Assembly: GCA_900471605.1 (NCBI GenBank)
Contig: UCEY01000021.1
Coordinates: 186,199 to 250,198, forward strand
DNA: 64,000 nt
Source of the DNA: Hyphomicrobiales bacterium
Lineage (GTDB): Bacteria; Pseudomonadota; Alphaproteobacteria; Rhizobiales; Rhizobiaceae
Direction: 5' to 3'
A program made the translations under genes and the position numbers. Under the pieces are notes generated by a model. That model searched no databases. It saw nothing but the letters and a program-made list of their open reading frames with translations, and had not been told where the DNA came from. Below, piece by piece: positions 48,867-63,166 of the stretch; position 1 is the stretch's first letter; the number at the start of each line of letters is the position of its first letter.

Positions 48867-49424
48867 TCAGGCGGCTTGCGAAGCCGTGAGATTTGCGGTC
48901 GTTACAAGCTCTACGCCGGCTTCAGCGAACTGCGCATTGTAACGCTGGATGATCGCGTCGGCCGGCTCACCGGGCTGATCGAGCGTGCTGTGCGCGTCGG
49001 AAACAACCGTCACCTTCAGCCCGGCGGAGATCGCGCCCTGGACCGTGCCGGCAATGCAGAAATCGGTCTGGGCGCCGAGGATTACCACTGCCGGTGCGCC
49101 TTGGCTCTCGACCCATGCACCGAGTTCCGGATTGCTGAAGGAATCCCGGACGGTCTTCGAGAAGGTGGGCTCGTCGCCCCGCTGGCCGAGCGCAGGCCAG
49201 ACGGGCCAGCCCGGCTCCCCGGGGGCCAAGGGATCTCCCTTCGGCCCGTCGTGGCGCACGAAGGCGATCTTGCGGCCGTCGCGCCGCGCCCAATCGATCA
49301 CTTTCCGGGCCCGATCAGCGAGCAGACCTGCCTCATGGAGGGGCGGCTCGACACGGCCGTCGAACATGTTGGTTTGCAGATCGACAATGATGACCGGTGC
49401 TTTTTCCGCGGATGGATGTGGCAT
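48867..49424 (-). CDS. Isochorismatase-family cysteine hydrolase
   Basis: This 185-residue alpha/beta-fold hydrolase begins PVIIVDLQTNMFDG with the catalytic aspartate; the general-acid lysine lies in TFSKTVRDSF and the nucleophilic cysteine in ILGAQTDFCIAGTVQGA. Family members hydrolyse amides such as N-carbamoyl compounds or act on isochorismate; the substrate here is unknown. ATG 49424 follows GGAGG with seven-base spacing. It is convergent with the ABC-F gene, with only six bases between stops. Confidence 0.87.
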   Translation of the reverse strand: MPHPSAEKAPVIIVDLQTNMFDGRVEPPLHEAGLLADRARKVIDWARRDGRKIAFVRHDGPKGDPLAPGEPGWPVWPALGQRGDEPTFSKTVRDSFSNPELGAWVESQGAPAVVILGAQTDFCIAGTVQGAISAGLKVTVVSDAHSTLDQPGEPADAIIQRYNAQFAEAGVELVTTANLTASQAA

Positions 49425-49672
49425 GGCGTGACCTCCATTGAAGACGGGGACTTGCCGAGTTTCACTTCGAACGGCGACGGGGATCCGCACGCTTGCGCAA
49501 GATCCACGATGGCATACTCAATCCTGTCAGCGCGGAAAAGGCAATTCAAAGCCTCCGGTGCCGGTCACGATCCGGCTAGAGCTCAGGAAACCGGAAAAGG
49601 GATCGCATCGTTGAACGGGAGAGCCGACGGGTTCCGGCGCACGCAGCCTTGCTTCGCTGCTCTCGAAAAGTG

Positions 49673-49692
49673 CGGCGGCGCGATCGCCGCCG
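49673..49692 (-). terminator. Hairpin terminator of the small secreted-protein gene
   Basis: An 8-bp GC stem (CGGCGGCG/CGCCGCCG) with a CGAT loop lies just after the stop of the gene at 49716 on the minus strand, followed there by CACTTTTC. It may also stop plus-strand reading from the other side. Confidence 0.55.
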
Positions 49693-49715
49693 TCCTCTCG
49701 CAGGCAATCTGCCGT

Positions 49716-49946
49716 TCAGCGGCAGACGCGGGTGGTCTTGACGACGACCCGGCCGTGGTAACGGGTCTTCACCTTCTTGACCATGCAGTCGTGGCGAGGA
49801 CGATACGGGCGGTACACTTCGCGCACGGTATGACGCGGAGCGATCCTCTCATGGGTGGTGACGGTGACGCTGGCGGCGTTGGACGGGCCGGCGACGGTCA
49901 GAATGGACGAAATGGCCAGAGCCGATGCGATAAGCAGGTTCTTCAT
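49716..49946 (-). CDS. Small secreted basic protein, unknown function
   Basis: This 76-residue protein has a signal peptide (MKNLLIASALAISSILTVAGPSNAA). The mature part is about 50 residues, rich in Arg, Thr, Val, His and Tyr (VREVYRPYRPRHDCMVKKVKTRYHGRVVVKTTRVC), with two cysteines that could form one disulphide. ATG 49946 follows GAGGAA. No family is recognised; such short exported basic proteins are common in Rhizobiaceae. Confidence 0.65.
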   Translation of the reverse strand: MKNLLIASALAISSILTVAGPSNAASVTVTTHERIAPRHTVREVYRPYRPRHDCMVKKVKTRYHGRVVVKTTRVCR

Positions 49947-50100
49947 GGGGTGATTCCTCAATGTTTTGCGAGGCATGAACGCAGATCGAGGATCTGGGTT
50001 CCCGCAAGCTGTTGGGACTGTAGTCCTATGTCCCGACCTTTCAATCGGACGTTTTTCCCATTCGGGGCACAACCCGATGGCGCGACAGGAGGAAAAGCTC

Positions 50101-50883
50101 CTACCTCAGCAACCCCTGGCCGCCGTCTACATAGATCGGCGTGCCGGTGACATGGCGAGACCGCTCGGAGGCGAGGAAGGCGATCACTTCGGCCACGTCC
50201 TCGCTTTTGCCTGGCCTGCCGTCGCTGATCGGCACCTGGCCTTCCGGCCATTCCACGGGGATCGCAGTTTCCTCCTCATGGCGGAGATTGGTGTTTTCGC
50301 CGATATTGGTCTCGATCTCGCCGGGACAGACGGCGTTGACGCGGATGTGGTGCTTGCCGAGCTCCAGCGCCAGCTGCTGGACCATCGCCACCTGCGCGGC
50401 CTTGGTGGCGGTATAGGCGGTGGCGCCGGGTGTCGTGAAGGTGCGGTTGCCGTTGATCGAGGAGACGACGACGATCGAGCCAGCGCCCTGCACCTTCAGA
50501 TGCGGCACGGTGAGGTGAAGCGTCAGATAGGTGCCGCGCAGATTGACGGCGATCGTCTTGTCGAATTCTTCCGGTTTCAGGTCGTCGATCGGCGCCCAGA
50601 CGCCGTTGATCCCGGCATTGGCGACGACGATATCGAGCCGCCCGAATTTTTCCGCGAGCCTATCGATCGCCGCACGCATCTGGCTTTCATGCGAAACGTC
50701 GGCCTCGAGGGGCAAGGCTTCTCCGCCCGCGACCGCTATTTCCCGAACCGTAGCGTCTATTTCGCTCTTCGTGCGACCCAGCACGCCCACCTTGGCGCCT
50801 TTGCCTGCGAGCTTCAGTGCCACGGCCTTGCCGATGCCCGAGCCTGCCCCGGTTACCAAAGCTACCTGAGATTTGAATTCCAT
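50101..50883 (-). CDS. SDR-family NAD(P)-dependent oxidoreductase
   Basis: This 260-residue short-chain dehydrogenase has the cofactor motif TGAGSGIGK (about 13-21), NAGI in VANAGINGVW, catalytic serine in SSINGN and the YxxxK pair in AYTATKAAQVA. GRT after the second strand hints at NADP(H) preference. It oxidises or reduces an unidentified alcohol/ketone. ATG 50883 follows AGGATGGG. Confidence 0.88.
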   Translation of the reverse strand: MEFKSQVALVTGAGSGIGKAVALKLAGKGAKVGVLGRTKSEIDATVREIAVAGGEALPLEADVSHESQMRAAIDRLAEKFGRLDIVVANAGINGVWAPIDDLKPEEFDKTIAVNLRGTYLTLHLTVPHLKVQGAGSIVVVSSINGNRTFTTPGATAYTATKAAQVAMVQQLALELGKHHIRVNAVCPGEIETNIGENTNLRHEEETAIPVEWPEGQVPISDGRPGKSEDVAEVIAFLASERSRHVTGTPIYVDGGQGLLR

Positions 50884-50979
50884 GAGCCCATCCTGTCGCC
50901 GGATCGCGGCATCTGCCACGCGACAGCGAACGGCAAGGCACGGCCCAAGGTTCCGCCCGATCAGGCGGGCTCGGATCTC

Positions 50980-51399
50980 TCAGGCCGGATATTGCTCATT
51001 GAGGATGCGCAGGCCTTCGGCGAATTTCGAGCCGTCACCGCCCATCTGGCGCATCTGGGCAAGATTGTCGGTGAGGTCGGCGCGCTTCACCGGCCGGGCG
51101 AGCGGGTTTTCGATCGAGCGGCGGACGAAGGCGAAATACTCCTCGCCGTCGCGTTTGCTCATCGCGTCGACGGCATCGACCACCGCTTCGGAAAAACCTT
51201 CCCCGCGCAGCCGGTCGAAAGTCCAGCCGGGGCCTTTCTCGACCACGTCATGCAGCCAGGCAACCTGTTTTTCGTCCTCGCCGGCGACGTTGTCAGCCAC
51301 GCGCCGGACGTGGTCGAGGAACGGCCCGCCGGTTTTCGACGACTGGCCCCGATGGGCCTCCGTCGCGATAGCGATCGCCTTTTCGATGAGTTCCGACAT
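50980..51399 (-). CDS. HD-domain phosphohydrolase-like protein
   Basis: This 139-residue protein has an HD-type fold similar to small (p)ppGpp-hydrolase / YfbR-like proteins: H16 in ATEAHRGQ, PFLDHVRRVA and the HD pair in AWLHDVVEKG, and the late KRADLTDNLAQM. These positions match metal ligands of HD phosphohydrolases. Substrate unknown. It is a compact, single-domain version without a synthetase part. Confidence 0.75.
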   Translation of the reverse strand: MSELIEKAIAIATEAHRGQSSKTGGPFLDHVRRVADNVAGEDEKQVAWLHDVVEKGPGWTFDRLRGEGFSEAVVDAVDAMSKRDGEEYFAFVRRSIENPLARPVKRADLTDNLAQMRQMGGDGSKFAEGLRILNEQYPA

Positions 51400-51458
51400 C
51401 GTTATGTCTCCCGTCAGTTCGGCGGCACTCTATAGGGTCGGCACGCGACGGCAATGCG

Positions 51459-51833
51459 TCAATTTCGGTCCTCCTCGAACTGCGGCACGGGAAGCGGGTT
51501 CAGCCAGTTCTCCCGCCGTTTCACCCAGAGTTCGTAGATCGGTTCGAGGTCGCTCGGCGCCATGTCGAGGGAGCCGATCCGGATCTCGATCTCGTCTCCT
51601 TCGCTTTCGTTGAAGATGCGGGAACCGCATTCGGGGCAGAAGCCGCGACCCTGGAAATATTTGACCTCGCCCGTGCTTTCGAACGCATGCCGGGGCCAGA
51701 TGCCGAAGGTGACGAAGCTGGAGCCGCTTTCCTTGCGGCAATCGGCACAATGGCAGAGCCCGATCCTGACCGGCGCATCCTTTACCGAATACTGCACCTT
51801 GCCGCAGAGGCAGCTTCCGGAACGGATGATCAT
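51459..51833 (-). CDS. GFA family zinc protein (glutathione-dependent formaldehyde-activating-like)
   Basis: This 124-residue protein has the GFA/CENP-V zinc pattern: GSCLCGKVQYSV at residues 6-17, LCHCADCRKESGSSF and FCPECGSRIFNE. The cysteines bind two zinc ions. The type member accelerates adduct formation between glutathione and formaldehyde, but the role of most homologues is unknown. ATG 51833 follows GGAGGAG. It stands alone, divergent from the gene at 51992. Confidence 0.88.
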   Translation of the reverse strand: MIIRSGSCLCGKVQYSVKDAPVRIGLCHCADCRKESGSSFVTFGIWPRHAFESTGEVKYFQGRGFCPECGSRIFNESEGDEIEIRIGSLDMAPSDLEPIYELWVKRRENWLNPLPVPQFEEDRN

Positions 51834-51991
51834 GTTCTCTCCTCCTTCTCCTCGCCCGGAAAAGGCAACTAGGGCAGGGGAGGACGAAAGGAAGAGATCA
51901 GGCAGGCTCTGGCGCGGACCGCTCGACAGGCTGGGTGGAACAGAATTGGCGCAACCGGCGTTCGAAGCCAACATCCAGATGGATCATCGCC

Positions 51992-52495
51992 ATGCGCTCA
52001 CGTCCCGCCTTGCTCGCATTCATCGCTCTCGTCTTCCTGCCCGGCCCTGCGTCGGCCGCCGAAGGAGATTTCCTGAAAACGCTCGCCGGCAACTGGAGGG
52101 GCAAGGGCATGGTCCTGACCCGTATCGGGGCCAACCCCATCAATGTCACCTGTGACTTCGCCTCGACGGCCGGACCGGCCTCCCTGTCCATGCAGGGGAC
52201 CTGCCGCGGCCTGCTGGTCATCCGGCGCAGCATAACGGCCGATCTCGAAGCTTCGGGTCGCGGGTACAGCGGCACCTATATCGGCCCGTCGGGCCAGCCA
52301 TCCGTCCTTTCCGGAAGCCGGCGCGGCAACGCGATCAATCTCGGCGTCCGCTGGGCGAGAGTGATCAACGGAGATCGCGTCGCCAACATGACGATCGAGA
52401 AGATCGGCAACGACCGCCTCAGGCTGCAGACGGTCGACAAGGATCTTTCGAGCGGCAAATCCGTGGTGACCAGCCGCATCGATCTCACCCGCTGA
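51992..52495 (+). CDS. Secreted hypothetical protein (beta-rich, lipocalin-like pattern)
   Basis: This 167-residue protein has a signal peptide (MRSRPALLAFIALVFLPGPASAA) and a strand-rich mature part: LAGNWRGKGMVLTRIGANPINVTCDF, LSMQGTCRGLLVIRRS, YSGTYIGPSGQ and NDRLRLQTVDKDLSSG. The GNWRGKG start and repeated strands suggest a small beta-barrel, perhaps related to families that bind small ligands. Two cysteines (in VTCDF and GTCRG) may form a disulphide. ATG 51992 fits the signal; the ribosome site is weak. Confidence 0.62.
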   Translation: MRSRPALLAFIALVFLPGPASAAEGDFLKTLAGNWRGKGMVLTRIGANPINVTCDFASTAGPASLSMQGTCRGLLVIRRSITADLEASGRGYSGTYIGPSGQPSVLSGSRRGNAINLGVRWARVINGDRVANMTIEKIGNDRLRLQTVDKDLSSGKSVVTSRIDLTR

Positions 52496-52520
52496 CTGGC
52501 CTGACACCGGGGGCCAGTCT

Positions 52521-53897
52521 CTACTCCACCTGACCGAGCTTGCCGGGGTTCATGATACCCTTCGGATCCAGCGCCGCCTTGATGGCGTTCATCATGTCGA
52601 CAGCGTCGCCATGTTCGCGGCGAAGGTATTTCAGCTTCGAAATACCGATGCCGTGTTCGCCGCTGAACGTGCCGCCCATGTCGATGGCGCGCTGGTAGAG
52701 GCGCTCGGCAAGCCGCTCGGCTTCTGCAAGTTCCTCCGGAATTTCCGGCTTGATCAGGTAGCCGACATGGAAATTGCCGTCTCCCACATGGCCGATGATC
52801 TTGCCCATCACGAAGGAATTGTCGATGTCCTCCCGAGCGGCGAGCACTGCGTCCGCCAGGCGCGAGATCGGCACGCAGACATCCGTCGTAAACGCCTTGC
52901 AGCCGGGGCGCAGCGTCTGGTTGGCATAGATCGTCTCGTGGCGGGCCTTCCACAACCGTTCGCGGTCTTCGGTGCGGGTCGACCATTGGAAATCGGACCC
53001 GCCAAACTCGTCAGCGATCTCGCGCACCGTGTTCGACTGCTCCTCCACCCAGCGCGGGCTGCCGTGGAATTCGAGGAACAGGGTCGGTGCGAGCTTGAGG
53101 GTGAGGCCCGCATGCCGGTTGGCGGCTTCGACGGCGACCTCGTCGAGGAATTCGATACGGGCGACCGGGATGCCGCTCTGGATGGTGGCGACGACCGCCT
53201 CCACCGCGCCGCGCATCGTCTCGAAGGCACAGACGGCAGATGCGATGGTTTCCGGGATTGGGTGCAGCTTGACGGTGACCTCGGTAATCACGCCGAGCGT
53301 GCCCTCGGCGCCGACGAACAGCTTGGTGAGGTCGTAGCCGGTCGAGGACTTTTTGGTACGGCGGCCGGTGGTGATAATTTTGCCTTGCGGGGTGACGACG
53401 CGCAGCGCCAGCACGTTTTCCCGCATCGTGCCGTAACGCACCGCGGTGGTGCCAGACGCGCGGGTCGAGGCCATCCCGCCGAGAGAGGCGTCAGCCCCGG
53501 GATCGATCGGGAAGAAAAGGCCGGTATCGCGGATATGGGCGTTGAGCTGCTTGCGGGTCACTCCCGCCTGCACCTGCACGTCGAAATCCTCGTGATTGAC
53601 CTGAACGATCTGGTTCATGCGGGTGAGGTCAAGAGAAATGCCGCCCTTGAGCGGGATCGTGTGTCCTTCCATCGACGAGCCGGCGGCGAACGGCGTCACC
53701 GGGATGCCAGCTTCGAAACAGGCCGAAACGACGCGCGCCACCTCGTCCTCGTTCTCCGCATAGACAACGGCATCCGGCAGCCGCGTCGGCTGGCGGGACA
53801 TGTCGTGGCCGTGGTGCTCGCGCACCGCGTCGGTGGTCGAAAGCCGGTCGCCGAAATGCAGCTTCAGCGCGTCGATGGTGGATTGCAGGGAGGTCAT
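52521..53897 (-). CDS. FAD-linked D-2-hydroxyacid dehydrogenase (GlcD/Dld-type)
   Basis: This 458-residue flavoprotein of the FAD_binding_4 / FAD-oxidase_C family has the PCMH FAD-binding region VTPFAAGSSMEGHTIPLKGGISLDLTRMNQIVQ (about 72-105), then PIDPGADASLGGMASTRASGTTAVRYG, and a C-terminal domain with GDGNFHVGYL and SGEHGIGISKLKYL. Relatives oxidise D-lactate, D-2-hydroxyglutarate or glycolate. In an operon with an L-specific-type FMN hydroxyacid oxidase and two TPP enzymes, it may convert the D enantiomer of a common 2-hydroxyacid. It ends the operon; its start overlaps the preceding gene by four bases. Confidence 0.88.
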   Translation of the reverse strand: MTSLQSTIDALKLHFGDRLSTTDAVREHHGHDMSRQPTRLPDAVVYAENEDEVARVVSACFEAGIPVTPFAAGSSMEGHTIPLKGGISLDLTRMNQIVQVNHEDFDVQVQAGVTRKQLNAHIRDTGLFFPIDPGADASLGGMASTRASGTTAVRYGTMRENVLALRVVTPQGKIITTGRRTKKSSTGYDLTKLFVGAEGTLGVITEVTVKLHPIPETIASAVCAFETMRGAVEAVVATIQSGIPVARIEFLDEVAVEAANRHAGLTLKLAPTLFLEFHGSPRWVEEQSNTVREIADEFGGSDFQWSTRTEDRERLWKARHETIYANQTLRPGCKAFTTDVCVPISRLADAVLAAREDIDNSFVMGKIIGHVGDGNFHVGYLIKPEIPEELAEAERLAERLYQRAIDMGGTFSGEHGIGISKLKYLRREHGDAVDMMNAIKAALDPKGIMNPGKLGQVE

Positions 53898-55549
53898 TTC
53901 TTCTCACCCGTCAGCATGCGGTGGTAACGCGACCGGGCGATTTCCTGCCGCGTGATGAATTCAAGAAGGACCGGCACACCCTTTTGCGTCTGCTCGATGC
54001 CGCGCTTGATCGCCGGGATGATCTCGGCGGGGTCGGTGATGCGTTCTCCATAACCGCCGAGCGCGCGGGCGAAGGCGGCGTAGTCGCCGGAAATGTCGGT
54101 CGAGCGGTACTTTTCCGTCGAGACCTTCATGATCGGCAGCTCCATCGCCATCGAGAAATTGTTGAGCAGGATCGACAGGATCGGGATGCGCTCGCGCACC
54201 GCGGTTTCGAAATCCATGCCGGTAAAACCGATCGCCGCATCGCCCCAGACATTGATGCAGAGCTTGTCCGGATGCATCAGCTTGGCGCCCATGGCGAGGC
54301 CGAGGCCGTAACCGAGCTGGGTCGACTTGCCCCAGCCGATATAGGTGAGCGGCTTCACCGACTTCCAGAACGGCGAGAGCTGGTCGCGCGGGCTGCCGGC
54401 GTCATGGGTGATGATGGTGTTTTCGATATCGACCGTGTGCTGCAGGTCCCAGAGAACGCGGTAGGGCGACAGCGGCGCTTCCGGCGCCGTGAGCTTCGGC
54501 ATCCATTCCGCCAGCCACTCTTCCTGCACCTTGGCGATCTCGGCGGCGACTTCGGTGTGGTCGCGCGGGGAAACCTTGCGGGCTTCAAGTTCGGCGAGAA
54601 CGGCGTCGAGCGTCAGGGCCGCATCGCCGATGAGCGCTACCTTCGCCTCGATATCCTTGTTGACGTGATCGGGATCGAGCGTCGCGTGGATGACGGTCTT
54701 GTCGAGCGGCATCTGCACGCCGAAGGCGGTCTCGGTGAACGAGCAGCCGATGCCGAAGATCAGGTCTGACGTGTCGAGGAAGTGACGCAGCGTCTTCGAG
54801 ATCGCCGCACCGCCGGCACCGACCGACAACGGATGGGTTTCCGGAAAGGCGCTCTTGCCTTCGAGGCTGGTCGAGACCGGGATCGCCAGGAGTTCCGCGA
54901 GCTGTTTCAGCTGCGGCCAGGCCTGCGCATAATGGATGCCCTGGCCGGCATAGAGGATCGGGCGCCTGGCGGCGAGCAGCAGGTCGACGGCGTCACGGAC
55001 GGCGGCCGGATCCGGCCCGTAGCGGGTGGAGAGAACCGGACGATAGTCCAGCGGTTCCGGCACTTCGTCCTGCCACATGTCGTTCGGGATCTCGACCAGA
55101 ACCGGGCCGCCGCGGCCGTTGCGCAGCTTCGAAAAGGCGCGGCGGAAGATGTTCGGGATTTCCGCCGCCGAGGTGATCGGCTCGGCGGACTTGGTGATGT
55201 CGCGCATCGAGCGGGTCGCGTTGTAGTTTGGGTCGATATGCGCGACGCGGCGCTCGTATCCCATCGGCAGCACCAGCAGCGGCACGGATTCCGAATAGGC
55301 CTGGGCAATGCCGCCATAGGCGTTTTCCGTGCCCGGTCCGAGCTGCATGGCGAAGACGCCGATCGTCTTGCCCGAGCTCAACCGCGACATGGCGTCGGCC
55401 ATATGCAGGCCGTGGCGTTCCTGGCGCACGATGATCGGGCGGATATCGCCCATCGCCGCGTGTTCGAGCACGTGGTTCACGGGATAGCCGCAGATGATCT
55501 CGATCCCCTCGCGCTTCAGGATTTCCACGATGGCGTCGGCAACTTTCAT
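53894..55549 (-). CDS. Thiamine pyrophosphate-dependent enzyme, acetolactate synthase / benzoylformate decarboxylase-like (copy 1)
   Basis: This 551-residue enzyme has the three-domain fold of TPP-dependent decarboxylases. The N-terminal Pyr domain carries the catalytic glutamate in VRQERHG (about 41-47). A central domain follows, and the PP domain binds ThDP through GDAAIGFTGMDFETAVRERIPILSILLNN (about 426-454), a GDA form of the GDG..NN motif. It could decarboxylate a 2-oxoacid. Together with the neighbouring hydroxyacid dehydrogenases it fits a mandelate-like pathway. The start follows the FMN-oxidase stop by 29 bases. Confidence 0.87.
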   Translation of the reverse strand: MKVADAIVEILKREGIEIICGYPVNHVLEHAAMGDIRPIIVRQERHGLHMADAMSRLSSGKTIGVFAMQLGPGTENAYGGIAQAYSESVPLLVLPMGYERRVAHIDPNYNATRSMRDITKSAEPITSAAEIPNIFRRAFSKLRNGRGGPVLVEIPNDMWQDEVPEPLDYRPVLSTRYGPDPAAVRDAVDLLLAARRPILYAGQGIHYAQAWPQLKQLAELLAIPVSTSLEGKSAFPETHPLSVGAGGAAISKTLRHFLDTSDLIFGIGCSFTETAFGVQMPLDKTVIHATLDPDHVNKDIEAKVALIGDAALTLDAVLAELEARKVSPRDHTEVAAEIAKVQEEWLAEWMPKLTAPEAPLSPYRVLWDLQHTVDIENTIITHDAGSPRDQLSPFWKSVKPLTYIGWGKSTQLGYGLGLAMGAKLMHPDKLCINVWGDAAIGFTGMDFETAVRERIPILSILLNNFSMAMELPIMKVSTEKYRSTDISGDYAAFARALGGYGERITDPAEIIPAIKRGIEQTQKGVPVLLEFITRQEIARSRYHRMLTGEKK

Positions 55550-55578
55550 GGGTTTCTCCTCCCAGGAGACATGATCGA

Positions 55579-56808
55579 TTAGGGGTGAGGTTGGAAATCC
55601 TTGGCCGTCCAGGCGCCGGCATGGCGCACGGTCGCGCGGCGGGCCTGTTCGGTGTTCAAGAGCCCGCTCTGGCCGAGGGTGATGCGGTACTCCTCGATGA
55701 AGGCCTGCGCCATATGGGTGGCGCCATGGTCACCGAGCGCGGCAAGGCCGAGCATGAAGGCGCGGCCGGCAAAGGACGAATGGGCGCCGCAGGCAACCGC
55801 GCGCACCATGTCGACGCCGGATACCACGCCGCTGTCGAACAGCACCGTGCCGCGCGTGCCGACCGCGCGGGCGATTTCCGGCAGGACGTCGATCGTCGCC
55901 GGCGCCGCATCGAACTGGCGGCCGCCATGGTTGGAGACGACCACCCCGTTCAGGCCGAGCTCGAGCGCCTTTTCGGCGTCGGCCGGATGCATGACGCCCT
56001 TGACCAGCATCGGTCCCGGCCATTTGTCGCGCAGGCGGGCGATCTGCTCCCAGGGGAAGCCGCCGCCGATATGTTTCTGCACGAAGGTGGAGGTGGTGAC
56101 ACGGTCCGGCGCGCCGGCAAACCCCGCCATGTTGGCGAAGGTCGGCATGCCCTTGCGTCTTAGTGCGTCCAGCCAGAAGGGGGCGATCGCCGCCGCCATC
56201 ATCGCCTTCGGCGTGAGCTTGAACGGCATGGTGAGGCCGTTGCGAAGATCGCGCGGCCGCTTGGCGCGCACCGGCACGTCCAATGTCGCGACCAGAACCT
56301 TGGCGCCGGCCACGCGGGCGCGCTCGGCCATTTCGAGACTGTATTGATGGTTGTTCGGCGCCATCGGGTAGAGCTGGAACCAGGTGACGTCAGGCGCCCA
56401 TTCCACCACCTGTTCGATCATCGCGCAGGCGAGCGTGCCGACCATGTAGGGGATGTTGTGGGCCTGGGCGGCCTTGGCGAAGCGCTCGGTCGCACCCGGC
56501 CACATCATGCCGTCGAAACCGATCGGCGAGATGCCGATCGGGGCGGCGTAATGATGGCCGAACAGCTCGACAGATGTATCGACCTTGGACACATCGAGCC
56601 CGTAACGCGGCACGACTTCGACAGCCTGCAGCGCCGTCCGGTTGCGATTGAGGCCGGTTTCATCGCCGGCGCCACCCTGCAGGAACTCGTAGGCAAAGCG
56701 CGGAATCCGCCACTTCGCCCGTTTCTCCAGGTCACCGACCATAGGGTAGCGCCGGCGGAGCTCTGCCAGCGTTTCTATCGTCCTTGCGTCGCTCCCGGCT
56801 CCCCCCAT
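55579..56808 (-). CDS. FMN-dependent alpha-hydroxyacid oxidase/dehydrogenase (LldD/MdlB-like)
   Basis: This 409-residue TIM-barrel protein of the L-lactate dehydrogenase / mandelate dehydrogenase family has the FMN and active-site residues: K270 (MLVKGV), H294 and R297 in VVSNHGGRQFDAAPATIDVLPEIA, Y147 in WFQLYPMAP, and GSDAR-like start. It oxidises an (S)-2-hydroxyacid to the 2-oxoacid. The active site lies among LldD, MdlB and glycolate oxidase, so the substrate is not fixed. ATG 56808 is used; M23 at 56742 is an alternative. The upstream TPP gene ends 12 bases before. Confidence 0.9.
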   Translation of the reverse strand: MGGAGSDARTIETLAELRRRYPMVGDLEKRAKWRIPRFAYEFLQGGAGDETGLNRNRTALQAVEVVPRYGLDVSKVDTSVELFGHHYAAPIGISPIGFDGMMWPGATERFAKAAQAHNIPYMVGTLACAMIEQVVEWAPDVTWFQLYPMAPNNHQYSLEMAERARVAGAKVLVATLDVPVRAKRPRDLRNGLTMPFKLTPKAMMAAAIAPFWLDALRRKGMPTFANMAGFAGAPDRVTTSTFVQKHIGGGFPWEQIARLRDKWPGPMLVKGVMHPADAEKALELGLNGVVVSNHGGRQFDAAPATIDVLPEIARAVGTRGTVLFDSGVVSGVDMVRAVACGAHSSFAGRAFMLGLAALGDHGATHMAQAFIEEYRITLGQSGLLNTEQARRATVRHAGAWTAKDFQPHP

Positions 56809-56820
56809 GACCGACGCCCT

Positions 56821-58521
56821 TTAGTAGGAAACCATGACTTCGAGCATGGCCTGCCGGCCGCTCCTGGTCGCGGCAAGCGCCCGTTGCAGCGCCGCCGGCA
56901 GGTCGGCACCCGTCTCGACGCGTTCGGCATGGGCGCCATGAGCGCGGGCGACGGCGGCATAGTCCGGAGCCGGGTCGAGCGCGGTGATCGGCATGGTGTT
57001 GGCGGTCGCGGCGCAGCCGTCCGGATACATGTAGAGCGTCGAGCGGCGCACGGCGTTCCAGATGCCGTTGTTGAAGACGACAGTGAGCAGCGGCAGCTTC
57101 AGCGCGGTCGCCGTCTGGTGGCAGGCGACCGGGTTGGCGAACATGTAGGAACCGTCGCCGACGGTGGCGATCACCTGGCGGCTGCGGTCGCCGAGCTGGG
57201 CGCCGAGCGCAGCGGTCAGGCCGAAGCCGAGACCGCCGGACAGCGGCGTCGAGAAGAAGGATTTCGGATGCTTGAACTCCATCACCGACGGGTCGATGCC
57301 GAGTTCGTTCACCAGCGTCGTCTTTTCGTCCATGATGTCGGAAATGCAGCGACTGACATAGGCCGGCGTCATCGGCGAGCCGTTGCCCACGGCGGCGCGC
57401 CTGGCGGCGGCTTCGGCCTGGGCTGCCTTCACCTTGGCGCATTTTTCGCGGCGTTCGGAGAAGGTTTCGGTTGCGGGCACGCGTTCGGCAAGCGCGGCGG
57501 CAAGAGCCGCGATCGTCTTGTTGATGCCGCCCGCGAGCGCGACGTCGATCGGGAAGCTGCGGATCGGCACGCGGCTATGCTGCGGGTCCGGGCCGATGGC
57601 GATGACCTTGGCGCCGGCCGCAAGCTCCGTATGGTCGGAGATCCACGGAACGGCGGCATTGATGACGACGACGACGTCGGCATCCTTGAGGACCTGCGTC
57701 GAGTCGCGGCCGATCATCATCGGGTGGTCGCTCGGCAGTGCCAGGCGCGTCGCCCACATTTCCACCGTCGGCAGCGCAAATTTTTCGACGAAGCCGGCGA
57801 GCGGTTCGAAATCGGTCCCGAGTTCCGGGCTCTGGCTGATGATCAACGGGTTCTTCGCCTTGGCGAGCAGGTCGGCCGCCTCGGCGACCAGTGCCGGATC
57901 GGCCGGGCCGTAGGTGGTCGGAGTGACCGTCGAACGCTGGCCTGCCTCGATCTCGGCGCCTTCCGCCAACGCCTCGCGCGGCAGGCTGAGATAGACCGGT
58001 CCGCGCGGCTCGCTCATGGCGATGCTCATGGCGCGGTCGATGACGATGCCGGCCTGTTCCGGATAGCGCAGTTCGTAGTCCCACTTGACCACTTCACGGA
58101 TCATGCCGCCCTGGTCGAACATTTCCTGGCCCCAATGGATCGGCGAGGAGCGCGAGCCGAAACGGCCATGTTCGGTGATCGGCGTACGGCCGGAGAACAT
58201 CATGACAGGTACGTTTTCGGAACGGGCGTTGATCAGGCCCATCACCGAATTCGCAAGGCCGACATTGACGTGGACGATGACGCCGGCAGGCTTCGCCGTC
58301 ATCAGGTAATAGCCGTGCGCCATGCCCACCGCGACGCCCTCGTGCGGGATGACGAGCGCTTCCGGCATTTTCAGGCCGGTTTCGGACTGGCGGGCGAATG
58401 CCTCGATGATCGACGGGAAGTCGGTGCCGCCGTTGGCGAAGAGGACATCGATACCGGCGGCCTTCATGTGGGTCAGCACAGCCTCGGCGGCGAATGTTCC
58501 GATCGGTTTTTCGTATTTCAT
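56821..58521 (-). CDS. Thiamine pyrophosphate-dependent enzyme, acetolactate synthase / benzoylformate decarboxylase-like (copy 2)
   Basis: This 566-residue TPP enzyme has a catalytic glutamate in VIPHEGVAVGMAHGYY (about 58-73), ISQSPELGTDFEPLAGF in the central domain and the ThDP motif GDGSYMFANPVACHQTATALKLPLLTVVFNN (about 462-492). It is clearly a different lineage from copy 1 (E in PHEG versus RQERHG context and a different spacing). Two such enzymes in one operon suggest two decarboxylation or ligation steps, or two substrates. Confidence 0.87.
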   Translation of the reverse strand: MKYEKPIGTFAAEAVLTHMKAAGIDVLFANGGTDFPSIIEAFARQSETGLKMPEALVIPHEGVAVGMAHGYYLMTAKPAGVIVHVNVGLANSVMGLINARSENVPVMMFSGRTPITEHGRFGSRSSPIHWGQEMFDQGGMIREVVKWDYELRYPEQAGIVIDRAMSIAMSEPRGPVYLSLPREALAEGAEIEAGQRSTVTPTTYGPADPALVAEAADLLAKAKNPLIISQSPELGTDFEPLAGFVEKFALPTVEMWATRLALPSDHPMMIGRDSTQVLKDADVVVVINAAVPWISDHTELAAGAKVIAIGPDPQHSRVPIRSFPIDVALAGGINKTIAALAAALAERVPATETFSERREKCAKVKAAQAEAAARRAAVGNGSPMTPAYVSRCISDIMDEKTTLVNELGIDPSVMEFKHPKSFFSTPLSGGLGFGLTAALGAQLGDRSRQVIATVGDGSYMFANPVACHQTATALKLPLLTVVFNNGIWNAVRRSTLYMYPDGCAATANTMPITALDPAPDYAAVARAHGAHAERVETGADLPAALQRALAATRSGRQAMLEVMVSY

Positions 58522-58590
58522 GCTGTATCCTCGTGGAAATTCTTGAAAACCCGCTGGGAACTCGTCCTCAGGTGATGCTGACTGGGCGGA

Positions 58591-60054
58591 TCAGCTTACG
58601 CTGACCGTTTTGGTGACCATGTAGGCCTCGACGCCTTCGATCCCGACTTCGGAACCGTGGCCGCTTGCCTTCACCCCGCCGAACGGCGTTTCCGGCATGG
58701 AGATGTTGAAGGAATTGATGCCGACCATTCCCGCTTCCAGCGCGTCGGATAGCTTTGCGATCGTCTTGTGCGAATTGGAAAACGCATAGGCGGCAAGGCC
58801 GTAGGGCAGTTCGTTCGCCTTGGTGACCGCGTCGTCGAAATCCGAGAAACGGTTGAGCACGGCGACCGGGCCGAACGGCTCCTCGGTCATGATCCGCGCA
58901 TCGCTCGGCACATCGGCGAGAACGGTCGGGGCGAAGTAGAAACCCTCGTTGTTGATGCGGTGGCCGCCAGCCAGAAGCTTCGCGCCCTTGGATGTGGCGT
59001 CCTGTACCAGCGCCTCGATCGCGTCGCGGCGGCGGCCGTGGACCAGCGGACCCATGCCGCTTGCCGGATCGAGCCCGTCGCCGACCTTGATCTTCGAGGC
59101 ACGCTCGGCAAAGCCGGCGCAGAAGGCCTCGTAGGACTTGTCCTGCACGTAGAAACGTGTCGGCGAGACGCAGACCTGGCCGCCATTGCGGTATTTGCGC
59201 TGCACCGACATATCGAGCGCAGCCGCCTGGTCGGCATCGTCGAAGACGAGCACCGGCGCATGGCCGCCGAGTTCCATCGTGGTGCGCTTCAGGCCCTCGG
59301 AGGCCAAGCGGATTAGGTGCTGGCCGACCGCGACCGAGCCGGTGAAGGAGATCTTGCGGATGACCGGCGAGGCGAGCAGGTGGCGCGAGATAAAATCGGG
59401 TACCCCGTAGACGACCGCGATGACGCCCGCGGGAACACCCGCATCGAGAAGGCACTGGGCGACGGCTGCAGCCGATGCCGGGGCCTCTTCGCCGGGCTTG
59501 TAGATCATCGTGCAGCCGGCGGCGAGCGCCGAGCCCATCTTGCGGGCGGCATTGCCGATGGGGAAATTCCAGGCCGAAAAGCCGGCGGTCGGGCCGACCG
59601 GTTCCTTGACCACCTGGAAGCGGGTTTCGCCGATGCGTCCAGGAATGACGCGGCCGTAGGTGCGGCGGCCTTCCTCGGCGAACCACTCCATTTCCTCCGT
59701 GGCGAAATGGGTCTCCAGCCGCGCCTCGGCGATCGGCTTGCCCATTTCGAGCGTCGCGAGGGTGGCGATTTCCTCCTGCCGGTCGTGCATCAGCTGGGCG
59801 GCGCGCTTCAGGATGCGGCCACGCTCGCGAGGGCTCGTGGCACGCCACAACGGAAAGGCGCGCTTGGCGGCTTCCAGCGCCCGGTCGAGATCCTGCGCCG
59901 TCGCATGCGGCACGATGCCGATCGCCTTCTCGGTGGCCGGATTGATGATGGCTTGGGTCTTGCGGTCGCCATTCTCCAGCCAGACACCGTCGATCAGCAG
60001 CCGCGCGGAAACGTAGGCATCGGCCGAGGCGGCTGGATTGGTCGCAATGTTCAT
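58591..60054 (-). CDS. NAD(P)-dependent aldehyde dehydrogenase (succinate-semialdehyde dehydrogenase-like)
   Basis: This 487-residue ALDH-superfamily enzyme has the catalytic C295 (GGQVCVSPT), E261 (MELGGHAP), N163 in AWNFP and the cofactor loop FTGSVAVGQHL. Sequence features (KEPVGPTAGFSAWNFP, YKPGEEAPASA) resemble GabD-type dehydrogenases. In this operon it would oxidise the aldehyde produced by TPP-dependent decarboxylation of a 2-oxoacid. Start ATG 60054; a frame upstream to 60142 lacks a ribosome site. Confidence 0.9.
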   Translation of the reverse strand: MNIATNPAASADAYVSARLLIDGVWLENGDRKTQAIINPATEKAIGIVPHATAQDLDRALEAAKRAFPLWRATSPRERGRILKRAAQLMHDRQEEIATLATLEMGKPIAEARLETHFATEEMEWFAEEGRRTYGRVIPGRIGETRFQVVKEPVGPTAGFSAWNFPIGNAARKMGSALAAGCTMIYKPGEEAPASAAAVAQCLLDAGVPAGVIAVVYGVPDFISRHLLASPVIRKISFTGSVAVGQHLIRLASEGLKRTTMELGGHAPVLVFDDADQAAALDMSVQRKYRNGGQVCVSPTRFYVQDKSYEAFCAGFAERASKIKVGDGLDPASGMGPLVHGRRRDAIEALVQDATSKGAKLLAGGHRINNEGFYFAPTVLADVPSDARIMTEEPFGPVAVLNRFSDFDDAVTKANELPYGLAAYAFSNSHKTIAKLSDALEAGMVGINSFNISMPETPFGGVKASGHGSEVGIEGVEAYMVTKTVSVS

Positions 60055-60194
60055 GTCTTTCCTCCGAGATTGTCAGCCGAATGCAACCGGCATCCATCAG
60101 CTGCGGGCTTTTCTCAAACCCGGGTCCCCCATTCCTCATCAAAGGGGATAAAGCAGGGACCCTGATATTGTCAATTCCGACATTTCACGCCAGC

Positions 60195-60986
60195 TCAGAT
60201 CGCAACCGTCCCGCCATCGATCGGGATCACCGCGCCGGTCATGAAACTCGAAGCCTTCGAAGACAGAAGAAGTGCAAGTCCCATGATCTCGTCGGTCTCG
60301 GCGATACGGCCGAGCGGCACGGTGTCGGCAAACGCCTTTTCTATCTCCGGTTCGCGGATGCGGCCGCCGGCGATATTGGTGCGGAAGGGGCCGGGGGCGA
60401 TGCCGTTGACCAGCACGTTATACGGTGCCAGCTCCCAGGAGGCTTGCCTGACCAGATTGACGACGGCGCCCTTGCTGGATGCATAGGCGTAACCGGTCAT
60501 CGGATCGCCGCGCAGACCGGCAATCGAGGCGATCGCGACGATGCGGCCGCTTTTCTGCTTCTTCATATGCCTGGCGGCCGACTGGATGGCGACGAAGGTG
60601 GCGGTGAGGTTGACGTCGACCACCTTGTTCCACAACTCTTCGCTGACATTCTCGATGGCGCCGGCTTCGGTGCGGGAATTCGGCCCGCCGCTGATGCCGG
60701 CGTTGGCCACGAGGATGTCGAGATGGCCATGTTTTTCGGCGATGCCATCGATCGTGTTGCGCAAGCTCGCGCTGTCGGAGACATCCACCTGGTGGCTCTC
60801 GGCGGGAAAACCCTGGCCATTCAGCCATTGATAGGCGGCGGCGAGCGTTTCCGCGTTGAGATCCAGCAGTGCGACATGGGCGCCATTGGCCCCCAGCGTC
60901 TTGGCGATAGCCAGACCGAGGCCGCTTGCCGCTCCGGTGACGATTGCCACCTGGCCCTTGAGATCGAACAGTTTTTCGGCTCGCAT
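60195..60986 (-). CDS. SDR-family oxidoreductase
   Basis: This 263-residue short-chain dehydrogenase has the Rossmann motif TGAASGLGLAIA (about 18-29), NAGISGGPN, catalytic S in IASIAGLRG and the YxxxK motif in YAYASSKGAVV. The GGTVAI C-terminus is usual in the family. It is the promoter-proximal gene of the operon and probably oxidises a secondary alcohol of the same substrate pathway. ATG 60986 follows GGGAGG. A 140-base gap separates it from the aldehyde dehydrogenase. Confidence 0.88.
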   Translation of the reverse strand: MRAEKLFDLKGQVAIVTGAASGLGLAIAKTLGANGAHVALLDLNAETLAAAYQWLNGQGFPAESHQVDVSDSASLRNTIDGIAEKHGHLDILVANAGISGGPNSRTEAGAIENVSEELWNKVVDVNLTATFVAIQSAARHMKKQKSGRIVAIASIAGLRGDPMTGYAYASSKGAVVNLVRQASWELAPYNVLVNGIAPGPFRTNIAGGRIREPEIEKAFADTVPLGRIAETDEIMGLALLLSSKASSFMTGAVIPIDGGTVAI

Positions 60987-61223
60987 TTCCGCCTCCCTGC
61001 GACCCGGACGAGCATGATCCTCCCCGCCCAAGCGGAGCCTACTTTGTATGCAATTTCCGAAGATGCAAGTTAGAAATTTGCTATTATCAATCAAAATTTG
61101 ACAGAGTCATATTGACCCGCCTGCCAAGGTTATACAGATTGCCCCTCATTCAGGTCTTTGGGGCGGGTGCCGGGGAGTGCTCGCCATCTGCGGTAAGCAG
61201 CGCTTGGGAGGGCGGAAAAACCG
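60987..61223. promoter_or_regulatory. Divergent promoter region of the catabolic cluster
   Basis: The 237-base gap contains an AT-rich stretch (about 61040-61115) unlike the flanking coding DNA, with TTGACA at 61098 and several short inverted elements (such as TTGTATGCAA near 61038-61050). It must hold both outward promoters. No specific operator can be named and no regulator gene lies beside it. Confidence 0.5.
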
Positions 61224-62009
61224 ATGAGCTTTGCCGAAAGCTTTGAAACCATCAGCGGAACGAAGATCCGGATCATGCGGAAAGGAAAGGGCTCGCCGCT
61301 TCTTTTCCTGCACGGTGCGAGCGGAGCTTCGCACTGGCTGCCATTCATGGAAAAACTTTCCGAGACCCATGCGGTGATTGTGCCGGAACACCCGGGATTT
61401 GGCGTATCCGACAATCCCGAATGGCTCGATAACATCTCGGATCTCGCCTTTTTCTATCTGGATTTCCTCGATCATCTCGGCCTGGACGGGGTGAACCTCG
61501 TCGGCACGTCGATCGGCGGCTGGCTGGCGGCCGAGATCGCCATTCGCAATGCGACGAAACTCGCCTCCCTTACCGTCGTGGCGCCGGCCGGCATCCGCGT
61601 GAAGGGCGTTCGCAAGGGCGATGTCTTCATGTGGAGCCCGGAGGAGACCGCGCGCAACCTCTTCCACGATCAAGCCTTTGCCGAAGCGATGCTGGCGGCT
61701 CCGCCGCCCTCCAAGGAAGCGATGGAAATCCTTCTGAGAAACAAGCTGACCTTCGCAAAGCTTGCCTGGGAACCGCGGTTCCTCAATCCGGATCTGCACA
61801 AGTGGCTGCATCGCATTCCGGTGCCGACGCTGATCGTCTGGGGCGACGACGACAAGGCGATGCCGGTCGGTTACGCTCCGGCGTGGCGCGACCTTATTGC
61901 GAACTCGCGGCTGGAGATCATCGAGAATTGCGGGCATGCGCCGCAGATCGAAAAGGCGGACCGTTTCGTCGAACTGGTCAACGGCTTCATCGGGGAGGTT
62001 ACGCGATGA
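61224..62009 (+). CDS. Alpha/beta-fold hydrolase
   Basis: This 261-residue hydrolase has the oxyanion HGASG motif (LFLHGASGASHW, about 29-40), the nucleophile elbow GTSIGG (LVGTSIGGWLAAEIA), the acid in VWGDDDKAMP and the catalytic histidine in NCGHAPQIE. The fold is that of esterases, meta-cleavage hydrolases and haloalkane dehalogenases; the serine elbow supports hydrolysis of an ester or C-C bond. Its stop overlaps the next ATG (ATGA), so the two act together. Confidence 0.88.
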   Translation: MSFAESFETISGTKIRIMRKGKGSPLLFLHGASGASHWLPFMEKLSETHAVIVPEHPGFGVSDNPEWLDNISDLAFFYLDFLDHLGLDGVNLVGTSIGGWLAAEIAIRNATKLASLTVVAPAGIRVKGVRKGDVFMWSPEETARNLFHDQAFAEAMLAAPPPSKEAMEILLRNKLTFAKLAWEPRFLNPDLHKWLHRIPVPTLIVWGDDDKAMPVGYAPAWRDLIANSRLEIIENCGHAPQIEKADRFVELVNGFIGEVTR

Positions 62010-63166
62010 AATTCTACTTCATGCACCTCATGCCCTATGCGGATCTCGATCTCTCCTATGACGAGAAGCACAATTCCGCCTGGGTAACGCTGCCGAACAC
62101 CTATTACGACCCCAGGAAAGGCCATCAGCTCTACAACCGTTACCTGGACGAACTCGAATATGCGGACCAACTGGGTTTCGACGGGATCTGCGTCAACGAG
62201 CACCATTCGAACGCCTACGGGCTGATGCCTATCCCCGGCGTGATGGCCGGCGCGCTCGCCCGCCGTACCAAGAACGTCAAGATCGCCATTCTCGGCCGCG
62301 CCCTGCCGCTCTTGAACAACCCGCTCACCGTCGCGGAAGAATTCGCGATGGTCGACAACATCACCGGCGGCCGCCTGATCGCCGGCATGGTGCGCGGCAT
62401 CGGCGCCGAGTACCATTCCTGGGGCGTCAATCCGGCCTTCAGCCATGAGCGGTTCCAGGAAGCCCACGACCTGATCCTGCAGGCCTGGACGCAACCCGGT
62501 CCGAGCGTGTTCGAAGGCAAGCATTACAATTTCGACTACGTGAACGTCTGGCCGCGGGTCTACCAGGACAATCCGCATCCCCCGATCTGGATCCCGAGCC
62601 AGGGTTCCAGCGAGACGATCGAATGGGCCGCCCATCCCGACCGCAAATATACCTATCTGCAGACCTTCGCCTCGGTTTCGATCGTCGCCCGCTACATGAA
62701 AATGTATAAGGATGTTGCCGCCGGTTACGGCTACGAGGCGACCCCCGAGCAGCTCGGCTGGTCGCTCCCGCTCTATGTGGCCGAGACCGACGAGATCGCC
62801 CGCCGCGAAGCCAAGGAGCATATCGAAGCCTTCCTGCAGAAGTTCCTCCGCATGCCGATGGAAATGCTGCTGCCGCCCGGCTACACCTCGGTCAAGTCGA
62901 TGGTGGGGGCGATGTCGGCCAAGGCAGGCCATGCGATGAAGCAGACGATCGACAGTGTCATCGAGGAAGGCAAGTTCATCTGCGGCAGCCCGGCGACGGT
63001 GCGCGAAAAACTGGAGGAGTACCAAAGCCAGATCGGCTTCGGTCATCTGCTCACGCTCCTGCAGTTCGGCACCCTGCCGGCGGAGCTGACCCGCAAGAAC
63101 ATGGAGATCTATTCCAAAGAGGTGATGCCCTATCTTCGCAGCGTAGCAGCCGGCAAGGCGGCTTGA
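62006..63166 (+). CDS. LLM-class flavin-dependent monooxygenase (luciferase-like)
   Basis: This 386-residue bacterial-luciferase-like protein contains YADQLGFDGICVNEHHSNAYG (about 54-74), LNNPLTVAEEFAMVDNITGGRLIAGMVRG and RYMKMYKDVAAG. Members use FMNH2 from a separate reductase to oxygenate aldehydes, alkanesulfonates, terpenes or amines. It is translationally coupled to the alpha/beta hydrolase. No flavin reductase gene is in the window. The substrate is unknown. Confidence 0.9.
   Translation: MKFYFMHLMPYADLDLSYDEKHNSAWVTLPNTYYDPRKGHQLYNRYLDELEYADQLGFDGICVNEHHSNAYGLMPIPGVMAGALARRTKNVKIAILGRALPLLNNPLTVAEEFAMVDNITGGRLIAGMVRGIGAEYHSWGVNPAFSHERFQEAHDLILQAWTQPGPSVFEGKHYNFDYVNVWPRVYQDNPHPPIWIPSQGSSETIEWAAHPDRKYTYLQTFASVSIVARYMKMYKDVAAGYGYEATPEQLGWSLPLYVAETDEIARREAKEHIEAFLQKFLRMPMEMLLPPGYTSVKSMVGAMSAKAGHAMKQTIDSVIEEGKFICGSPATVREKLEEYQSQIGFGHLLTLLQFGTLPAELTRKNMEIYSKEVMPYLRSVAAGKAA

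Follow-up and report, generated by a model that had tools for sequence, protein, structure and literature searches.

A six-gene operon on the minus strand (60986..52521) of a 64,000-nt stretch of a 7.1-Mb Hyphomicrobiales genome (contig UCEY01000021.1, positions 186199-250198; this stretch is called the window) most likely encodes a mandelate-type catabolic module for an aromatic, aryl-C2-like 2-hydroxy acid, a reading that we hold with moderate confidence and that draws on gene content, protein families, active-site residues, tree position and synteny. The closest named matches of the window are Neorhizobium plasmids and contigs, and we treat the genome as Neorhizobium. A first-pass annotation had named six same-strand genes at 52521-60986 and proposed that hydroxy acid oxidation, decarboxylation by thiamine diphosphate (ThDP) enzymes and aldehyde oxidation occur in series, as in the mandelate pathway. 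The genes and families agree with the open reading frames (ORFs) and Pfam; the proposed series is upheld in part, in that linked flavoenzymes, a ThDP enzyme and an aldehyde dehydrogenase recur in close relatives. The gene list was right for the operon but left unmentioned a divergent monooxygenase arm and a gentisate gene; the operon makes up only one half of the locus. The features are as follows.

60195..60986, minus strand: short-chain dehydrogenase (SDR), operon gene 1; PF13561/PF00106, YASSK motif at residue 168
58591..60054, minus strand: aldehyde dehydrogenase (ALDH); Pfam, C295 and E261 present
56821..58521, minus strand: TPP1, ThDP enzyme of family NF006203 (PRK08327), benzoylformate decarboxylase (BFDC)-like; E61 (catalytic Glu), H84 (BFDC His70 equivalent), T33 (Ser26 position)
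55579..56808, minus strand: FMN-dependent (S)-2-hydroxyacid dehydrogenase, MdlB/LldD-like; Y40, Y147, K270, H294, R297
53894..55549, minus strand: TPP2, ThDP enzyme of family NF004807 (PRK06154); catalytic E44
52521..53897, minus strand: FAD/metal D-2-hydroxyacid dehydrogenase, LDHD type; R319, H370, H377, E414, H415
60987..61223, no strand: divergent intergenic region; conserved blocks, putative GntR-type boxes at 61042 and 61126
61224..62009, plus strand: alpha/beta hydrolase ABH1, divergent arm; ORF and Pfam
62006..63166, plus strand: luciferase-like monooxygenase (LLM)-class flavin-dependent monooxygenase LLM1, divergent arm; Pfam

All six operon proteins score above the curated Pfam cutoff for their family (FAD_binding_4 and FAD-oxidase_C for the FAD enzyme), and K270, H294 and R297, which the first-pass annotation had reported in the FMN protein, are all present. 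From the ORF coordinates, the intergenic gaps from the SDR gene to the FAD enzyme gene measure 140, 69, 12 and 29 bp and are followed by a 4-bp overlap. The SDR ORF starts with ATG; a TTG start further upstream, at 61094, is also open. The ALDH is nearest to succinate-semialdehyde dehydrogenase-type models in NCBIfam, yet it falls under every cutoff shown.

We compared gene order in 80 loci fetched with six short peptide patterns of TPP1 (the best 80 of 100), a non-exhaustive set whose members all contain TPP1 by construction. A homologue was counted at tblastn identity of at least 30% within the fetched flanks, which end about 10 kb from TPP1, such that genes farther out are missed; L046, L054 and L066 lie on short contigs or are cut at a contig end. 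We defined as close the 24 loci whose TPP1 identity was 62% or higher; two of these are contigs of about 10 kb. This comparison, which had been proposed along with the mandelate-like reading, found the module kept in the close clade: the ten closest loci (L035-L043 and L053) retain all eight genes of both divergent units, and because of this we regard the gene set as more than a product of chance. Across the 24 close loci, homologues were found for the FAD enzyme in 22, the FMN enzyme in 21, the ALDH in 20, TPP2 in 15, LLM1 in 13, a CoxL-type protein in 11, and crotonase, SDR and ABH1 in 10 each, along with a p-hydroxycinnamoyl-CoA hydratase/lyase in 8 and an Amidohydro_2 protein in 7, and the genes that remain hold a preserved order. 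In seven close loci (L045, L050, L051, L052, L055, L059 and L066), a flavoenzyme is accompanied by TPP1 but not by TPP2, so a single ThDP enzyme seems to be enough there. A match to the FMN enzyme (E up to 1e-130) was present in 2/199 genomes sampled from the order, and a TPP2 homologue of at least 93% identity in 5/24 genomes of a genus set (own genome included in both counts); by these sequence comparisons, the module is patchy and rare.

The FMN enzyme matches PF01070 with 366.8 bits and keeps the active-site Lys, His and Arg, a match at family level only. Its PDB matches begin with two fused lactate oxidases and continue with (S)-mandelate dehydrogenase and 4-hydroxymandelate oxidase, and it contains a hydrophobic loop common to MdlB and LldD, which we take to be a sign of a membrane-associated dehydrogenase. 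The Gly in its PIGFDG motif was considered as a mandelate marker and rejected, as E. coli LldD has Gly at the same column. For the FAD enzyme, the best solved relative is mouse LDHD (510 bits), whose metal and substrate ligands Arg347, His398, His405, Glu442 and His443 correspond by motif match in the alignment to R319, H370, H377, E414 and H415. For the mouse enzyme, activity is reported on D-lactate and further D-2-hydroxy acids bearing hydrophobic groups, and not on the L forms (PMC10589216). The suggestion that both enantiomers are used holds up as a gene layout, since FMN and FAD enzymes of opposite type are linked in the close loci. There is also a precedent: a Rhodococcus opacus VOC-14 plasmid carries an FMN enzyme, an annotated mdlC and an FAD enzyme in the same order as here (31% identity for the FAD enzymes, 27% for MdlC versus TPP1, 34% for the FMN enzymes), so the two-enantiomer layout by itself is no novelty.

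TPP1 passes the NF006203 (PRK08327) model with 653.1 bits against a cutoff of 456, and TPP2 passes NF004807 (PRK06154) with 871 bits against 607; both families are named just "thiamine pyrophosphate-requiring protein" and carry no function name. To place the two enzymes, we built a ThDP tree of 44 chosen rows (21 TPP1-family, 11 TPP2-family, 3 MdlC/PRK07092 and 9 other). The TPP1 family, MdlC and PRK07092 share one side of a branch (support 100/99), with the TPP1 family forming its own clade beside MdlC and not within the MdlC family. In a residue alignment of 45 rows (the window and 44 picked from the 80 fetched loci, numbered without the initial Met), the catalytic Glu (E61 of the full-length protein) and the BFDC His70 equivalent (H84) are invariant (45/45). 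Outside the TPP1 family, the His70 equivalent occurs in a wider alignment only in two MdlC rows and one PRK07092 row. The labels His70, Ser26 and His281 are those that we take to be standard for BFDC, and mutants at all three positions are named in the titles of structure entries that were matched. The structure model of TPP1 has a predicted local distance difference test score (pLDDT) of 91.6, and Foldseek ranks 1-3 are 4-hydroxybenzoylformate decarboxylases, whose scores are level with those of acetolactate synthase and 2-hydroxyacyl-CoA lyase. Assignment of TPP1 to acetolactate synthase was rejected on a TIGR00118 score of 144.5 bits against 538.35 and on its tree position on the MdlC side. 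Elsewhere the same genome encodes a PRK07092 benzoylformate decarboxylase-like protein (L023, G000:C52:139213-140733; 673 versus 493), and three other FMN_dh paralogues were found in the genome, none of them on the contig of L023.

TPP2 forms its own clade (support 100/100) on the opposite side of the TPP1/MdlC branch. In approximately unbiased (AU) tests, which were chosen after the tree was seen and in which several reference rows are long branches, three placements were rejected: TPP2 as MdlC (p 0.011), TPP1 and TPP2 as a single clade (p 0.011) and TPP2 as acetolactate synthase (p 0.0198; TIGR00118 276.5 bits against a cutoff of 538.35). The genome carries a separate acetolactate synthase (L025, 1098.3 versus 974) and an IolD (L027). 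Judged by tree and scores, TPP2 is neither MdlC nor acetolactate synthase. The first-pass annotation had named grouping with true acetolactate synthase as an outcome that would count against it, and by the tree (for TPP2 also by AU test) neither ThDP enzyme groups there. Less in line with its mandelate-like reading are the rejection of TPP2 with MdlC and the 9/24 close loci in which TPP2 is unseen. Among solved structures, TPP2 is closest to BbmA (entries titled ThDP-dependent HKA synthase), followed by 2-hydroxyacyl-CoA lyase/oxalyl-CoA decarboxylase and by acetolactate synthase; a structure model of TPP2 (mean pLDDT 65, built from a 14-row alignment) was not used.

Where TPP2 occurs without TPP1, its gene is adjoined by an FMN hydroxyacid oxidase and an ALDH gene in Bradyrhizobium 62B, by an FMN hydroxyacid oxidase gene in Salipiger and by a D-2-hydroxyacid dehydrogenase gene in Haladaptatus. 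With Neorhizobium petrolearium counted, a hydroxyacid-enzyme neighbour is present in 4/7 TPP2 contexts read; the other three have none directly adjoining, the Novosphingobium dld gene being about 8 kb off. We also observed a TPP2 homologue flanked by two TauD/TfdA dioxygenase genes, not by hydroxyacid enzymes, in Novosphingobium sp. EMRT-2 (L118, 9004-12525), and, on Rhizobium johnstonii pRL12 (L124, 7944-9635), a distant TPP2 relative (41% identity) that has Gln at the catalytic Glu position and is surrounded by dihydropyrimidinase/allantoinase-type genes.

The reactions, their order, the substrate class and the regulation are what we infer from these data, and the series would run as follows. 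The (S) enantiomer of the hydroxy acid would be oxidised by the FMN enzyme and the (R) enantiomer by the LDHD-like FAD enzyme, both giving one 2-oxo acid, with flavoenzyme electrons passing to the respiratory chain; TPP1 would decarboxylate the 2-oxo acid to an aldehyde, which the ALDH would oxidise to the acid. TPP2 may be a second ThDP decarboxylase or a lyase of different specificity. The divergent arm, with its two-component LLM monooxygenase and FMN reductase, hydrolases, CoxL-type protein and crotonase, would either supply the hydroxy acid or process a sister compound, and in this strain the aromatic ring may be opened via gentisate.

In common with the mandelate pathway (mdlABCD of Pseudomonas putida; the copy on R. 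rhizogenes K84 pAtK84c was compared), the operon has an FMN (S)-2-hydroxyacid dehydrogenase, a ThDP enzyme on the MdlC side and an ALDH; it differs in having a D-type FAD enzyme, another ThDP family, a second ThDP enzyme and the divergent LLM arm. No mandelate racemase was found among the ten proteins scanned (48867-63166), whereas one is present in the R. rhizogenes mdl locus; a racemase is not a feature of every mandelate cluster. For aryl-C2 lignin fragments, R. jostii RHA1 has a 4-hydroxybenzoylformate cluster that combines vdh and a benzoylformate decarboxylase with an oxidase whose substrates include mandelic acid; in contrast to the locus described here, it uses a benzoylformate decarboxylase proper and a VAO-superfamily oxidase, and the available portions of these reports mention neither a second ThDP enzyme nor an LLM arm (PMC9811514, PMC10167727). 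The bzf cluster of Pseudomonas sp. LLC-1 resembles what is predicted for our operon in combining a decarboxylase (benzoylformate decarboxylase) with an aldehyde dehydrogenase (benzaldehyde dehydrogenase), but it is described, in the part of the source available, as having no mandelate dehydrogenase and giving no growth on mandelate (PMC7760541). Among the matches listed in an open-access literature search, the present cluster was not found. Relative to these systems, the present locus adds other ThDP families, a second ThDP enzyme, the LLM/CoxL arm and the link to gentisate as new elements.

Several observations weigh against a mandelate-type series, and we give them here together with the alternatives that they touch. 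In L046, TPP1 is flanked by about 4 kb on either side, and no partner gene is seen. In the 56 more distant TPP1 loci (identity <60%), no FMN enzyme homologue was detectable; an FAD enzyme homologue was adjacent only in L060 (weak and distant in L057 and L112), and an ALDH homologue was present in 5. The gene context is thus specific to the close clade. The FMN enzyme shares 37% identity with the FMN enzyme of the R. rhizogenes mdl locus, 34% with that of Rhodococcus and 36-38% with three other alpha-hydroxyacid oxidases (pairwise BLAST); it is about equally similar (34-38%) to MdlB-type and other oxidases, so similarity does not reveal its specificity. Within the operon we identified no marker for a particular substrate, and a gentisate dioxygenase was seen in this genome only, the relatives not having been searched for one. 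As for TPP1, the Ser26 position is Thr in all aligned rows (45/45), pairwise BLAST identity to two MdlC proteins is 26-27%, and the benzoylformate decarboxylase model NF005485 gives 172.7 bits, far below its cutoff of 493. The BFDC step of the original proposal is thereby left with the branch shared with MdlC and the conserved His70 equivalent in its favour, and without membership of the BFDC family as that model scores it.

Alternatively, the ThDP enzymes could be carboligases or C-C lyases (of acetolactate synthase, 2-hydroxyacyl-CoA lyase or diketone hydrolase type) that split or form acyloins, with the flavoenzymes and ALDH processing their products instead of feeding them. TPP1 lacks His281 of BFDC, and none of 21 TPP1-family rows has a His at that column. 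In addition, VIA-align Z scores for the TPP1 model range from 36.8 to 35.2, most of them within 1 of each other and the top one an ancestral acetolactate synthase, so that fold scores tie across BFDC, acetolactate synthase and 2-hydroxyacyl-CoA lyase (HACL) and do not separate the families. These two features of TPP1 speak for carboligation or lysis, as do the solved relatives of TPP2, and the LLM and alpha/beta-hydrolase arm would fit ketone cleavage. Against it stand the MdlC/PRK07092 branch and His70 equivalent of TPP1, the rejection of TPP2 with acetolactate synthase (p 0.020) and the presence of both 2-hydroxy-acid flavoenzymes beside TPP1 in most close loci, and we consider this explanation unlikely.

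We rate as slightly more doubtful the proposal that the operon acts on aliphatic (lactate-like or branched-chain) 2-hydroxy acids and not on aromatic ones. It is consistent with the best NCBIfam matches of the FMN enzyme, which are L-lactate dehydrogenase models (below cutoff), and with the Haladaptatus context of TPP2, where no aromatic genes are in view. Mouse LDHD likewise prefers D-lactate and hydrophobic D-2-hydroxy acids over D-2-hydroxy-3-phenylpropionate, which it is reported to oxidise with much lower efficiency (PMC10589216). The opposite is suggested by genes in the neighbourhood (for gentisate dioxygenase and hydroxycinnamoyl-CoA hydratase/lyase, and of pca type), and by the (S)-mandelate dehydrogenase and 4-hydroxymandelate oxidase that follow the fused lactate oxidases among the PDB matches. 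That the six genes are mere neighbours with separate roles is very improbable: parts are indeed lost separately (TPP2, the SDR and the FMN enzyme are unseen in 9/24, 14/24 and 3/24 close loci, two of these 24 being the contigs of about 10 kb), but the genes are tightly spaced, those that remain keep their order, and blocks of the intergenic region are identical in 11/11 sequences.

Past the window end, the divergent arm continues with a GntR regulator, an FMN reductase (PF03358), a second LLM monooxygenase (LLM2), a second alpha/beta hydrolase (ABH2), a CoxL/XDH-type large subunit and a crotonase, such that in total it holds two LLM monooxygenases, two alpha/beta hydrolases and one each of the FMN reductase, GntR regulator, CoxL-type protein and crotonase; the gene order of the arm is the same in N. 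petrolearium. Beyond it, a group of genes on the minus strand encodes a gentisate 1,2-dioxygenase (TIGR02272, 477.6 versus 442.1; L029:17351-18430, approximately 77152-78231 in window numbering, about 13 kb past the window end) and a fumarylacetoacetate-hydrolase family protein. In N. petrolearium, a fumarylacetoacetate-hydrolase family protein is found at the edge of the stretch read.

The eight close relatives that bear the p-hydroxycinnamoyl-CoA hydratase/lyase comprise six of the Rhodobacter group, Rhizobium sp. RU36D and a Chelativorans metagenome-assembled genome (the copy in L044 scores 414.6 versus 276); their loci also hold an acyl-CoA dehydrogenase and a second ALDH, and 7/8 an ADP-forming-type acyl-CoA synthetase. 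In Aminobacter J41 (L045), the module is near pcaF and a pcaJ-type gene. These aromatic-degradation neighbours point to aromatic substrates, and the substrate of the operon is probably aromatic.

A fuller scheme, a new pathway for aromatic side chains, is possible, and we offer it tentatively: the two-component LLM pair and the alpha/beta hydrolases would release an alpha-hydroxy acid as mixed enantiomers, which the paired flavoenzymes, decarboxylation by the PRK08327 enzyme and oxidation would convert to an aromatic acid and on to gentisate, the whole forming one GntR regulon; some rhizobia and the Rhodobacteraceae would have the module coupled to the breakdown of hydroxycinnamates. The series would offer testable functions for two ThDP families that lack a function name (PRK08327 and PRK06154), and it predicts a second evolutionary solution to mandelate-type chemistry outside the MdlC family. 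It would also connect 2-hydroxyacid oxidation with LLM monooxygenases and CoxL-type proteins within a single conserved cluster beside phenylpropanoid or gentisate genes.

Two further observations concern the front of the locus. Among the 24 close loci, the Amidohydro_2 protein (L045, L047, L048, L049, L051, L052 and L055) and LLM1 (L035-L043, L050, L053, L056 and L059) never co-occur, as if two alternative front ends feed one module; these loci are related and do not amount to 20 independent cases. Among the distant TPP1 relatives, L064, L067 and L094 have LLM homologues nearby, and L064 and L094 an alpha/beta hydrolase as well, a recurring association of LLM, hydrolase and ThDP enzyme.

The intergenic region between the SDR and ABH1 genes contains the blocks identical in all 11 sequences compared (the window and ten loci). 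We built a 14-mer box from the sites at window position 61126 and at L029:5530 and searched 78.8 kb with it. At up to three mismatches there were three sites against 0.8 expected from ten Markov sequences; two are the source sites, and the third, which is independent, has 2 mismatches and lies 6 bp upstream of the first ATG of the gentisate dioxygenase ORF. At up to four mismatches, the sites are not clearly above the expected 9.4. These matches are no more than suggestive of a shared putative GntR operator for the locus and the gentisate gene. Promoter and terminator scans gave nothing over the shuffled expectation. The intergenic region of 4/11 sequences (L036, L037, L040 and L043) carries, upstream of the SDR gene, an insert of approximately 130-170 bp that contains GC-rich palindromic stretches and is probably a dispersed element.

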